48,653 nt of DNA, from IMG/VR virus record IMGVR_UViG_3300025009_000157, positions 1 through 48,653 of that record. One strand, written 5' to 3'. Below, piece after piece: positions 32 through 48,653 of this stretch; positions within the stretch are counted from its first letter, which is position 1, and the number at the start of each line of letters is the position of its first letter. A program made the translations under genes and the position numbers. The notes under the pieces are model-generated. The model saw only the letters and a list, made by a program, of their open reading frames with translations, searched no databases and was not told the origin of the DNA. The stretch comes from a virus.

Positions 32-60
32 TTGACACGATTTGCGAAATGGTGTATAAT
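32..60 (+). promoter_or_regulatory. Consensus sigma-70 promoter, leftmost early promoter
   Basis: TTGACA at 32-37, a 17-nt spacer and TATAAT at 55-60 match the bacterial housekeeping consensus perfectly. Transcription would start near 67 and run rightwards through a leader of about 130 nt into the gene at 199. GTCCAA lies 5 nt before the -35 box, as it does at the 4443 promoter. The perfect match suggests strong immediate-early expression by host RNA polymerase. Confidence 0.93.
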
Positions 61-95: not shown

Positions 96-115
96 ATTGC
101 CCCTCGGGGGGCAAT
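96..115 (+). promoter_or_regulatory. Leader hairpin (invertible-looking stem-loop)
   Basis: An 8-bp stem (ATTGCCCC pairing with GGGGCAAT) closes on a TCGG loop in the 5' leader of the first transcript. In the second terminal-repeat copy the same place reads almost exactly as the reverse complement, one base shorter, and still folds (7-bp stem). Keeping the fold while the strand sense flips suggests the hairpin is functional, perhaps protecting the mRNA 5' end. It may also be prone to replication-slip inversion. Confidence 0.7.
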
Positions 116-198
116 GGATCTTTGACAACGGGCACAGACGGTCAATGTTCTTAATGGCATTCATGCCAAATTATCCTATCACAAAAGGGAGAAATATC

Positions 199-804
199 AT
201 GAAGACATTCAAGGGTATTGATGGTGTTCAGAACATTACGGTAGACGGTGGTATTGTGCGAACAGGCGTTCTCTCCTTCACGACACGAAGGAAGGAATCC
301 CAGAAGGTCAAACTTGCTGGGGATAAGGGAGTGACGTATAATGTTGCTATTGATATCTCTGGAGTTCCTATGGCATGGTTGTTATATCATGCAGGGAAGG
401 ATTTGTTATCAGACTTTAACAATAATAACAAGGATGTTGAGACGCTGAAGGGATGGGGAGATACAACGCAGCATGTCCTGTATGCGGATAAGTACTCTCT
501 GAATGATGATAGAGAGCCTGTGCAGAAACGTGTTGTGCTCACAGCAACGCCGCAGCAACGGAGAATGTCTGCCTGCCAGAGGGTGATTATGTCTCTGCTT
601 GTGAAGAGCACACGGACAGACGAAGAGACACGTTCGCTGAGGAATGCACAATGCAGACTGTTCCTGGATGGCGGGATGCTGCCAGCAATGATTGCCCCTG
701 CACTCTCTATGAGCATGGAGGATGTATTGAAGCTGCAGGAGCAGAATACGCTGGAGGATAAACAGGGCCTTTCTACAAATACCACTGTTGCGCATGGTGC
801 ATGA
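199..804 (+). CDS. Unknown 201-aa early protein, absent from second repeat copy
   Basis: This is the first gene behind the leftmost promoter. The start at 199 follows an AAGGGAG ribosome site 8 nt upstream; an in-frame ATG at 97 lies in the leader hairpin and has no such site. The protein is soluble, with basic and beta-rich character in its first 60 residues and Q/R-rich helices in the middle (around 115-150). It ends in a Met- and Leu-rich helix and a Ser/Thr-rich tail. I see no signal peptide or known motif and do not recognise the family. A 638-bp deletion in the other repeat copy removes all but its first four codons, so at least part of the population seems to do without it. Its place under a perfect promoter fits an accessory takeover or anti-defence role, but that is inference only. 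Confidence 0.75.
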   Translation: MKTFKGIDGVQNITVDGGIVRTGVLSFTTRRKESQKVKLAGDKGVTYNVAIDISGVPMAWLLYHAGKDLLSDFNNNNKDVETLKGWGDTTQHVLYADKYSLNDDREPVQKRVVLTATPQQRRMSACQRVIMSLLVKSTRTDEETRSLRNAQCRLFLDGGMLPAMIAPALSMSMEDVLKLQEQNTLEDKQGLSTNTTVAHGA

Positions 805-914
805 CACTTGCGGTATGGCTGCTCTGCATACAGTAGAGCATGCCATTCAGAACATTGACCGGCAGGAGGACTGATCGGACAGGCATCTCTGACAAACGTC
901 GGGTTTCCCATTGT

Positions 915-4442: not shown

Positions 4443-4471
4443 TTGACAAACCCAATGGAGGATGATATAAT
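4443..4471 (+). promoter_or_regulatory. Consensus sigma-70 promoter
   Basis: TTGACA at 4443-4448, a 17-nt spacer and TATAAT at 4466-4471. The start point would be near 4478, leaving a leader of under 20 nt before the ATG at 4496. The upstream 4420-4431 stretch is AT-rich, like an UP element. GTCCAA precedes the -35 by 5 nt, exactly as at the 32-60 promoter. Confidence 0.92.
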
Positions 4472-4876: not shown

Positions 4877-5172
4877 TAGTATCGGGCACGCACTTCTCCA
4901 TATTCATGAGGGATAGCAAGGTTGCCCTGGAGATAGAGGAGCCTGACTTTGCCCTCCTTCGAGAGGACCCTGACTTCTATAGGTTCTTCATACAAGAGGT
5001 GGCAAAACATACCAGTCTAGCAAAGAAAAGAATTCGAGAGATTGCGTATGAAGATGGCTATGCCGATGCCCTGAAGCATTATGGCATATCCCAGGAACAA
5101 ATAAACAGTATCGCGAAACAGGTAGATGGGGAGAGTATGCAGCTTATGCTCTTTCCCCTGGAAGAAGAGTAG
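4873..5172 (+). CDS. Unknown 99-aa acidic protein
   Basis: It starts in the ATGA overlap with the preceding gene, which is co-transcribed and probably translationally coupled. The protein is acidic, with two helical parts and a conserved-looking middle around KKRIREIAYEDGYADAL. Family unknown. Its pairing with the ribbon-helix-helix-like gene in one small operon could mean a partner or co-regulator, but nothing in the sequence proves that. Confidence 0.65.
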   Translation: MIVSGTHFSIFMRDSKVALEIEEPDFALLREDPDFYRFFIQEVAKHTSLAKKRIREIAYEDGYADALKHYGISQEQINSIAKQVDGESMQLMLFPLEEE

Positions 5173-5186
5173 CAAGACCAGCAACC

Positions 5187-5215
5187 CAGGTTTGTTCAGA
5201 AACTGAACAGACCTA
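5187..5215. promoter_or_regulatory. 29-bp dyad element, copy 2 of 8
   Basis: CAG, gttt, GTTCAG, AAA, CTGAAC, agac, CTA, in the 81-nt gap before the gene at 5254. Here the inner stem extends through the 4-nt arms (AGGTTT with AGACCT, one wobble), so the transcript could fold into a 12-bp hairpin with an AAA loop. Confidence 0.85.
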
Positions 5216-5253
5216 CACAATAGCCCAGATGGGCGAAACAAAGGAGACTTACA

Positions 5254-5661
5254 ATGTCAGAGCAACTGTTGGAACAAGAAGTGCAGAATGGGCAGGAAGA
5301 AGTTACAGATGGCACTATCGAAGTATCGGTGTCTTCTCCTAGTAAGGGTATCCAGCCCTTCTCCTTCACATTGAACTTTGGCGCCACGCTTGCGGAGAAA
5401 GTGGAGCGCATTGGCGAGAGTGTGGTCAACAAGTTGTGCGAACGTATGATTCGCACAGACGCCAGAAACAAAGCGGCCGCCTCCCTCACAGACGGCGATA
5501 CGCAGGAGGCCGTCCTAGCGGAAATGCAGACCTGGACTCCTGGCGTCATTGCGCAACGTGAGAAGGGTGAAACCCTCAAGGGCCTGAAGAGCAAGCTCGC
5601 CTCATTCGCCAGTGCGGAAGAGAAGAGAGCTTATCTCCGCGAGATGGGCCTGATCGACTAG
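5254..5661 (+). CDS. Unknown 135-aa protein
   Basis: The start at 5254 follows AAAGGAG, 39 bp after dyad copy 2. The N-terminal 30 residues are acidic and Gln-rich. Next comes a strand pair (IQPFSFTLNFG), then helices with charged residues and an Ala/Glu/Lys-rich end. The layout of acidic tail, beta hairpin and helical bundle would suit a DNA-mimic or ssDNA-associated protein, but I cannot assign a family. It is followed by a good terminator-like hairpin, so it may form its own transcription unit. Confidence 0.7.
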   Translation: MSEQLLEQEVQNGQEEVTDGTIEVSVSSPSKGIQPFSFTLNFGATLAEKVERIGESVVNKLCERMIRTDARNKAAASLTDGDTQEAVLAEMQTWTPGVIAQREKGETLKGLKSKLASFASAEEKRAYLREMGLID

Positions 5662-10944: not shown

Positions 10945-11208
10945 ATGCAAGTATACAACAATAAGGATACGCGTATGCACCTCTCTGTTCACATAGACAC
11001 AGAGCATAGGCAAATCCTGAACAAGATTCCGCACGGTCTCCAGCGTCGCGTGATACTATCATATATTGAGAAGTTGGGGAAGATGCTGGACGAACACGGG
11101 ATAGAGATAATTCCTGTGCTCATAGACCCCGACATCCCGCTAGATAGTATCATGCGTGTCTGGCAGAAAATAAATAGGAAGGAATCCCAAACAGATGCAA
11201 CTCAATAA
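10945..11208 (+). CDS. Unknown 87-aa protein
   Basis: It is the first gene after the terminator at 10841-10914, with AAGGAG before the start. The layout of N-terminal strand (MHLSVHID), helix (QILNKIPHGLQRRVILSYIEKL) and strand (IEIIPVLID) resembles a small dimerising or DNA-binding fold, but I cannot name it. No promoter is obvious in front, so it may rely on read-through. Confidence 0.65.
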   Translation: MQVYNNKDTRMHLSVHIDTEHRQILNKIPHGLQRRVILSYIEKLGKMLDEHGIEIIPVLIDPDIPLDSIMRVWQKINRKESQTDATQ

Positions 11209-11404
11209 CCTATTGAAGAGCGTATCTGAAATGTCCGACGATGAACTGGAGGCAATACTGGCAGCGATCCGCCAGAACCGTTTCCGCCCTCAGGAGACAG
11301 TCAAGGTAAAGACAAAGGAAAAGAAAACCATGAAGCAGAAATGCGCAACCCTCACGGCAGAGCAGAAGGCGAAACTCCTCAAGGACCTAGGCATCGAGAT
11401 ATAG
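11195..11404 (+). CDS. Unknown 69-aa basic protein
   Basis: It overlaps the preceding gene by 14 nt. The start has GGAAGGA 11 nt upstream. The protein has two helical segments (ELEAILAAIRQ and LTAEQKAKLLKDLG) joined by a Lys-rich linker, KVKTKEKKTMKQK. An internal ATG follows that linker. No recognised motif. It lies directly before a mini membrane protein. Confidence 0.6.
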   Translation: MQLNNLLKSVSEMSDDELEAILAAIRQNRFRPQETVKVKTKEKKTMKQKCATLTAEQKAKLLKDLGIEI

Positions 11405-11405
11405 A

Positions 11406-11516
11406 ATGCTATACACCATAGTTGTGGGAAGTATCCTCCTTATAGCAACCAGTATCGGTGCATTCATTCTTGGGTGTGCCTATTTCTACAGCAGGGAAAG
11501 GAACAAGCATGAATAA
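11406..11516 (+). CDS. 36-aa single-span membrane peptide
   Basis: The reading frame begins 1 nt after the preceding stop, and its end overlaps the start of the ParB-methyltransferase gene by 8 nt. It encodes one hydrophobic span (VVGSILLIATSIGAFILGCA, residues 6-25) followed by a charged tail SRERNKHE. The ribosome site is weak, so coupled translation is likely. Small membrane peptides in phage middle operons often act in lysis timing or exclusion; here that is only a possibility. Confidence 0.5.
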   Translation: MLYTIVVGSILLIATSIGAFILGCAYFYSRERNKHE

Positions 11517-12921
11517 GATAAAGGAAATTCCCCTCGCACACATTGTGTACGCTGGGGAACGTGAGGCCCATAAGGACCTAGACGGTCTGGTAGCGGCTAT
11601 GCAAGCTCGCGGGCAACTGCAGCCTATTGGCGTCTATCATAAGGAGAACGCATACCATATCCTCTATGGGAGGCGGCGCTTCTTGGCCGCACAGCGTCTA
11701 GCATGGGAAGCCATAGCTGCCACGATATATCCTGCGGAGAAACTCGACGAGTATGACGCCCTTGAGATCGAACTCATGGAAAATGTACAGAGAGAAGACC
11801 TGACATGGCACGAGCGTGATGTCTCCGTAGCCCGTCTTGACAAACTCATGCGGGCGAAGCGCATGGGGACAGGCGACAGTTGGAGCATGCGTAAGACCGC
11901 TGAGCTGATGGGCATGGCCTTAGGAAGCGTTGCAACTGCTATAAAGATGGCTGAGAGTGTAGAAGCATTCCCCCGCCTTCGAGAAGCGAAGACACGTAGT
12001 GAGGCAGAGCGCACCCTGAACACAATAGTGGAAGCCGCCGTGCTTGCCGAGAGTGCGCAGCGTGCCAGGGCAAGGGTAGACACACCCCTCACTATACAGG
12101 AACAGCAACAAGTTCTCACCGACAGCGTAGCGGGGATTCCACAACCGACAGCTTCCCAAATCGTTAGCGATAAGCAATGTGCTGCCCAACGCCGCCTGAT
12201 AAACGCATACCTAGTGAGTGATCTATCAGAGGCTCTGTCAAAAGTAGATGACAATTCCTTCCACCTTATCGAATACGATCCTCCGTATGCAATTGATCTA
12301 CGGAATGTAGTGACGCTGGATGAACAGCAAAGGGCAGACCTCATGTCAGCTGCAATATCAGAGAAGGAGTATCGTCCATTCCTCGCTAACATATTCCATA
12401 CAGCGCATAGCAAGCTGCGGCCAAACGGTTGGCTGCTCGTATGGATAGCCTTCGGCAAGTGGCAAAACATGGCGATAGAAGAACTGAGGGACGCCGGCTT
12501 TGAGGTGAACCCATTCCCTGCTATATGGGTGAAGCTATATGGGAACAGTCGTTCCCCTTCCACTACGCTCGCCCCTGCATATGAGTGCTTCCTCTATGCC
12601 CGCAAGGGGCAGGCGATCCTGGCGAAGCCTGGCAGAGACAACACCTTCATATACAAAGCGCTGCATGCTAGTGCCAAGGTACACCCCACAGAGAAACCGA
12701 TCGAGCTATATGAAGAGATCCTGCGCACATTCTGCTTCGAAGGAAACAGTGTGTGTACAGGGTTTGCTGGATCGGGCAACTTCATGCTGGCTGCCGCGAA
12801 CTGTAAACTCCCTGTAATTGGGATCGATAAGGCAGATCGATACAAGGACGCATATACCATGAAAGTAGTTAGCGGTGTGCCTGGAACATACAAGAGCCCG
12901 AATAGGAAAGGAGACCGATGA
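11509..12921 (+). CDS. ParB-like domain fused to a DNA methyltransferase
   Basis: The 470-aa protein starts at 11509 with AAAGGAAC upstream. Residues 1-100 form a ParB/Srx N-terminal domain, with YGRRRFLA at 53-60 in place of the usual GxRR box and ENVQREDL at 91-98. Helices at about 100-160 include an HTH-like MRKTAELMG. The second half is an amino-methyltransferase: motif IV DPPY at 257-260 and motif I FAGSG at 419-423, in that order, as in permuted N4-cytosine or N6-adenine enzymes. It likely methylates phage DNA at sites chosen through the ParB/HTH part, perhaps to evade restriction. Target unknown. Confidence 0.85.
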   Translation: MNKIKEIPLAHIVYAGEREAHKDLDGLVAAMQARGQLQPIGVYHKENAYHILYGRRRFLAAQRLAWEAIAATIYPAEKLDEYDALEIELMENVQREDLTWHERDVSVARLDKLMRAKRMGTGDSWSMRKTAELMGMALGSVATAIKMAESVEAFPRLREAKTRSEAERTLNTIVEAAVLAESAQRARARVDTPLTIQEQQQVLTDSVAGIPQPTASQIVSDKQCAAQRRLINAYLVSDLSEALSKVDDNSFHLIEYDPPYAIDLRNVVTLDEQQRADLMSAAISEKEYRPFLANIFHTAHSKLRPNGWLLVWIAFGKWQNMAIEELRDAGFEVNPFPAIWVKLYGNSRSPSTTLAPAYECFLYARKGQAILAKPGRDNTFIYKALHASAKVHPTEKPIELYEEILRTFCFEGNSVCTGFAGSGNFMLAAANCKLPVIGIDKADRYKDAYTMKVVSGVPGTYKSPNRKGDR

Positions 12922-47947: not shown

Positions 47948-47975
47948 ATTATACATGCTCCCAGACATGTGTCAA
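47948..47975 (-). promoter_or_regulatory. Late sigma-70 promoter, right end
   Basis: Read on -: TTGACA (47970-47975), a 16-nt spacer and TATAAT (47948-47953). It drives the lysis-type genes, small terminase and exported fibre genes. It shares its 24-bp upstream block (47970-47993) with the 37817-37845 promoter. Leader to the first gene about 60 nt. Confidence 0.92.
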
Positions 47976-48311: not shown

Positions 48312-48343
48312 TCGCCGCCGGGCGGGAAAACTGTCCAAAGGGG

Positions 48344-48372
48344 TTGACACGATTTGCGAAATGGTGTATAAT
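48344..48372 (+). promoter_or_regulatory. Second copy of the leftmost early promoter
   Basis: TTGACA 48344-48349, 17-nt spacer, TATAAT 48367-48372, identical to 32-60. It would transcribe rightwards out of the window, which in a circular or concatemeric genome means back into the left arm. Confidence 0.92.
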
Positions 48373-48509
48373 ATATCCGTTGGGTGAAGAAGATCAGCCC
48401 GGCACGGATTGCCCCCCGAGGGCAATGGATCTTTGACAACGGGCACAGACGGTCAATGTTCTTAATGGCATTCATGCCAAATTATCCTATCACAAAAGGG
48501 AGAAATATC

Positions 48510-48653
48510 ATGAAGACATTCAGAACATTGACCGGCAGGAGGACGTATCGGACAGGCATCTCTGACAAACGTCGGGTTTCCCATTGTGAGGCGAGGCGCC
48601 TCGCATGCCTAATTGTAAGCCCCCCACCCCACCCCATTTTGACCACTTTCCCT
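48510..48653 (+). pseudogene. Deletion remnant of the first early gene
   Basis: The start codon and ribosome site match those at 199. After MKTF the frame runs into the sequence that follows the first gene elsewhere, reading RTLTGRRTYRTGISDK and then Arg- and Pro-rich residues to the window end. Joined to the left arm at 981 it would stop after ten more codons (a total near 58). It is the product of the 638-bp deletion, not a conserved gene. Confidence 0.75.

Follow-up and report, generated by a model that had tools for sequence, protein, structure and literature searches.

The roles of boxA and of the leader-trailer helix in rRNA have been described (PMC10250234). In the pre-16S rRNA leader, a boxA-like element has the 5′ arm of a stem close behind it, the body lies in a long loop and the 3′ arm follows the body; the sequences of the arms vary while their pairing is kept. 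Lambdoid phages carry nut sites (boxA/boxB with the N protein) in their early leaders, with a hairpin near the boxA element. In hok and aapA type I toxin mRNAs the ends of a single mRNA pair with each other, and aapA mRNAs are silenced through this 5′-3′ interaction (PMC6733600). Gene loss by deletion has been recorded for the T7 early region, where gene 0.3 and its neighbours were deleted in adaptation experiments (PMC6042481), and for the S-PM2d cyanophage, in which an ORFan deletion arose in a laboratory lineage and its fitness was measured (PMC4503421).

The locus analysed here lies in a viral DNA of 48,653 nucleotides (IMG/VR record IMGVR_UViG_3300025009_000157; hereafter, the window). 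It shares with the pre-16S rRNA leader all of the features listed above and differs from it in that the body is one protein-coding ORF, with no 16S, and that Nus binding and RNase III cutting are putative. As in the lambdoid nut sites, the early leader of a phage carries a boxA-like element close to a hairpin; unlike in those systems, the hairpin precedes boxA (as it does in rrn operons), a leader-trailer stem is added, and no N-like protein was identified. As in the T7 early region, deletion has removed an early gene that is dispensable and stands behind a strong early promoter; the two show no homology. In both this locus and S-PM2d, part of a phage population has lost ORFans, but the S-PM2d deletion is far larger and belongs to a laboratory lineage. 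In the literature searched, coverage of which was partial, we found no description of a phage unit of this kind. Overall, we consider it probable that the locus exists as two alleles on a circular map and that its early slot forms an RNA unit similar in build to a pre-16S rRNA operon.

Alignment of the two ends of the window identified the same locus with and without its first early gene. The right end (48313–48653, plus strand) corresponds to left positions 1–205 joined to 844–980, and the intervening 638 bp (206–843) are missing, with CATTCA at both borders (206–211 and 844–849). This is the junction described in the original prediction, which was also right that the right copy keeps the promoter, leader and ribosome site. 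The two copies show two further differences, unmentioned at that stage like the bracketing inverted repeat and the boxA-like leader described below: the hairpin loop at 96–115 reads ATTGCCCCTCGGGGGGCAAT in the left copy and ATTGCCCCCCGAGGGCAAT in the right, and TG at 872–873 is changed to GT. At their outer edges the copies are identical over 103 bp (start) and 107 bp (end); no exact repeat longer than the latter, which links the two ends, was found in the window. An explanation of these edges as an exact k-mer effect was toned down because the two lengths are unequal, which leaves the k-mer signature approximate only.

The window record is classed as linear in IMG/VR, and its ends had been read as terminal repeats. 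Relatives gathered through their DNA polymerase (80 of the 207 matched were taken) do not bear out this reading. The ends of near-complete IMG/VR relatives overlap exactly by 114, 127 or 141 bp, and they do so at differing map positions; the Desulfofustis phage OP947158, deposited as circular, has a 127-bp end overlap. Closure can be imperfect in these phages as it is in the window: in G015, 127 identical bases are followed by one mismatch, and the end overlaps of G004 and G016 are imperfect too. The varied positions of the overlaps indicate that this phage family has a circular map and that the window ends are two alleles. Fixed direct terminal repeats are at odds with copies that differ at three places and with relatives whose contigs open at a variety of map positions. 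When the window is closed into a circle, the relatives’ gene order (terS, promoter, first gene, inverted repeat, early genes) is regained with a single copy of the locus. Based on these comparisons, we interpret the window as a single genome with a circular map, which belongs to an uncultured tailed phage and was closed at a point where two alleles differ.

The same deletion is carried by L009, a separate contig in IMG/VR that matches the window right end with zero mismatch across 9372 bp. It runs past the deletion through left positions 844–1080 and then into a 99-bp tail absent from the window; it is the sole match in IMG/VR to the exact leader pattern, which has none in GTDB genomes. As the deleted allele in L009 continues into the post-gene sequence, the two window ends appear to be coexisting alleles of a single locus, with and without the first early gene. 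The prediction that two genome variants coexist thus gained an independent deleted haplotype, and the proposal of an accessory gene is in line with a gene that is dispensable in at least one variant, the deleted allele recurring in L009. We regard as quite improbable the alternative that one genome holds both copies, as a fixed and diverged duplication of the promoter/leader locus with one copy lacking the gene. Such a second locus would account for L009 departing at 1080 from the left sequence and ending in 99 bp foreign to the window, but circle closure, by restoring the family gene order with one copy, argues against it. The L009 tail (its positions 1–99), which has no match among phages or other IMG/VR contigs, is AT-rich and joins the window sequence within the AT-rich core of the large inverted repeat at 915–1202. 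A chimeric read would look like this, and the tail is probably such a read. It is highly improbable that the deletion is itself a library or assembly artefact produced by polymerase jumping across an inverted repeat. Inverted arms and a 6-bp direct repeat at the breakpoints are the classic setting for template switching, but the deletion has a linked difference on either side, and L009 contains the entire haplotype free of mismatches. For users of assemblies, the two-allele reading means that “terminal repeats” of imperfect identity can represent two alleles that meet where a circle was closed.

The left allele begins with a sigma-70 promoter, TTGACA-17-TATAAT (32–60, plus strand; 12/12 consensus match), retained in the deleted allele at 48344–48372. 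The original prediction had placed the lost 201-aa gene under the strongest promoter; the gene is indeed lost, whereas the existence of other 12/12 promoters makes this one of the strongest. These further perfect consensus promoters lie at 4443–4471, 37817 (minus strand) and 47948–47975 (minus strand). In the relatives L166, L167 and L170, such promoters are found 211–298 nt ahead of the first gene. The leader continues with the GC hairpin (96–115, plus strand), located just upstream of boxA and paired in the RNA folds of both alleles, so that either sequence is able to form it. The ribosome-binding site (187–191, plus strand) falls within the loop that the bracket stem would close.

The first early gene (199–804, plus strand; P0001, 201 aa) is present in the left allele only. 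Its ORF looks coding, with a codon score of 0.13 that is similar to those of other phage genes; shuffles score −0.155 ± 0.053. We found no homologue of P0001 in IMG/VR, GTDB genomes, phage records, 49 relatives, PHROGs, PADLOC or PDB, and family and PADLOC searches revealed no homology to known defence or anti-defence families, so that the suggestion of a costly or anti-defence factor gained no support. The AlphaFold2 model of P0001 alone was unusable (pLDDT 37) and gave no fold match. The equivalent slot of relatives is also filled by a gene, and many of the products form a fast-diverging family; the AlphaFold2 model of this family (pLDDT 73.5) had no significant fold match in BFVD or PDB. 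Against the slot-family profile, P0001 scores best of the 90 window ORFs and above 150 of 150 shuffles, in a match that is weak, with an hhalign probability of 3–6% and a few decoys scoring equally high. Its setting follows that of the relatives, with early promoter, leader, gene and large inverted repeat in this order, and it is mainly by position that P0001 can be tentatively placed in the slot family. P0001 shows no similarity to the first protein of the Desulfofustis phage. In G006 and G016, other small ORFs lie inside the bracket, so the content of the slot varies. A second small-protein family, weakly similar to the first-slot family, is located just upstream of ligase/exonuclease genes (G016 11119–11484, G013 5070–5519 and G005 2337–2771, polA-forward coordinates).

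Downstream of the leader hairpin we identified a boxA-like motif, ATCTTTGACAA (118–128, plus strand), as a candidate NusB/S10 site. The shared core TTCTTTGACAA, with at most one mismatch, is present in 8 of 20 first-gene leaders compared with 5 of 1062 control ORFs (p 3e-12); one of these five, G006, is in fact a first early gene whose assignment was wrong at the time of counting. The remaining 12 of the 20 leaders lack boxA as first defined. In seven of the eight boxA-bearing leaders, the 5′ arm of the bracket stem overlaps boxA or begins no more than 10 nt past its end. The same analysis applied to E. coli rrnB gave a boxA two mismatches from the shared core and a leader/trailer stem of 28.5 starting at boxA. 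Scanning 115 sequences on both strands for the combination of boxA, ORF and stem returned 10 units, each from a different genome and each located at the early-gene slot. By its resemblance to known elements, TTCTTTGACAA is a candidate for the boxA of the hosts of these phages.

The gene is bracketed by a 22-nt inverted repeat, with a 5′ arm (139–160, plus strand) upstream of the ribosome site and a 3′ arm (840–861, plus strand) 36 nt past the stop codon; 21 of the 22 positions are paired. In relatives, inverted repeats also occupy these two positions, and their arms are mostly unrelated in sequence. Defined as a Watson-Crick-only stem with a score of at least 10 in fixed windows, a closing stem was found for 13 of 20 first early genes, the window included, and for 23 of 1059 control ORFs of the same genomes (Fisher p 4e-16); the windows were picked after the signal had been noticed and were applied identically to the controls. 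First-gene start codons in some relatives were assigned by hand, and the formal count of 13 of 20 becomes 15 of 20 once G006 and G016 are re-assigned. Even then, the stem is absent from the first genes of G012, G023, G025, G026 and the Desulfofustis phage and from four further loci. In a clade of five relatives (L169, L163, L162, L164 and L165), the first-slot protein is well conserved and neither the bracket stem nor boxA is present.

The pairs that depart from Watson-Crick rules indicate which molecule was under selection. A repeat kept as DNA is expected to contain GU and AC pairs equally often. The first-gene stems contain 27 GU, 3 AC and 9 other such pairs, compared with 10, 10 and 13 in control stems, and this excess of GU over AC points to the sense RNA of the bracket stem as the selected molecule. 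The arms could alternatively be DNA elements, namely protein-binding operators, a cruciform or the transposon-like ends of a gene cassette, as might be suspected of sequences that flank a gene present in one allele and absent from the other. We consider this very unlikely given the strand-specific RNA signature and the fact that both arms stay in the deleted allele, unlike those of an excised element.

An RNA-level role could also consist of translational control by 5′-3′ long-distance pairing as in the type I toxin mRNAs, with a host-toxic product. This alternative fits a stem that closes the mRNA in the manner of the interaction that silences aapA mRNAs (PMC6733600), and the 5′ arm in the window is also able to pair with the start-codon region. 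The ribosome site, however, lies in the loop and outside the stem, no consistent occlusion is predicted, and partition-function calculations on the 20 phages showed predicted ribosome-site accessibility with and without the 3′ arm shifting inconsistently, which tends to speak against toxin-like silencing. As it also leaves the association with boxA unexplained, we regard toxin-type control as unlikely. The preferred reading is that of a unit working like an rRNA transcription unit without being one, since its body appears to be an ORF; Rfam gave zero matches in the window. The order of its parts is strong promoter, boxA-like element, 5′ arm, ribosome site, ORF and 3′ arm. In this unit, boxA would recruit host Nus factors, and these would make the early RNA polymerase termination-resistant. 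The 5′ arm may be held near the exit channel and pair with the 3′ arm as the latter emerges, looping in the mRNA. The resulting stem, 22–40 bp in the stronger cases, may stabilise the mRNA or undergo cutting by RNase III.

The deletion takes the ORF and spares the promoter, hairpin, boxA (48429–48439), 5′ arm (48450–48467), ribosome site and 18 nt of the 3′ arm (48517–48534), all on the plus strand. The residual 3′ arm pairs with the 5′ arm, and together they form a compact predicted hairpin (−34.2 kcal/mol, z −7.3) with the ribosome site in its loop. Because the promoter, boxA and stem survive, a phage with the deleted allele would be expected to express the downstream early genes still. The junction joins two segments that are each complementary to the same leader arm. 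The inverted arms and CATTCA repeats may have promoted the deletion, and strand switching templated by the leader arm and aided by CATTCA is its likely origin.

Beyond the bracket, the region 915–1202 contains a large inverted repeat with 62-nt arms (77%) around a T12 tract. It is the best inverted repeat of the window (DNA fold z −5.9), and in 14 of the 20 phages whose first gene was assigned, the genome likewise has its strongest inverted repeat about 0.5–1.3 kb past the start of that gene. This element is a candidate replication origin or terminator. Elsewhere in the window, positions 11458–12921 encode a single protein with ParB-like and DNA methyltransferase domains, and a ParB homologue occupies the same position in relatives.

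We see about even chances that the reading extends to the family as a whole, namely that widespread uncultured tailed phages express their first early protein from an mRNA built like an rRNA precursor, borrowing, as infection begins, the machinery with which the host transcribes and processes its rRNA, and that this unit outlasts the gene it carries. The deletion allele represents a natural experiment in this respect, with the ORF gone and the RNA unit retained. If the model is true, a leader-trailer architecture known from rRNA would extend to a phage protein-coding gene, and a simple capture of Nus factors by a phage without its own N protein would be suggested. The unit would also provide a structural marker for locating the first early gene, likely one of host takeover, where the protein has diverged beyond sequence recognition.
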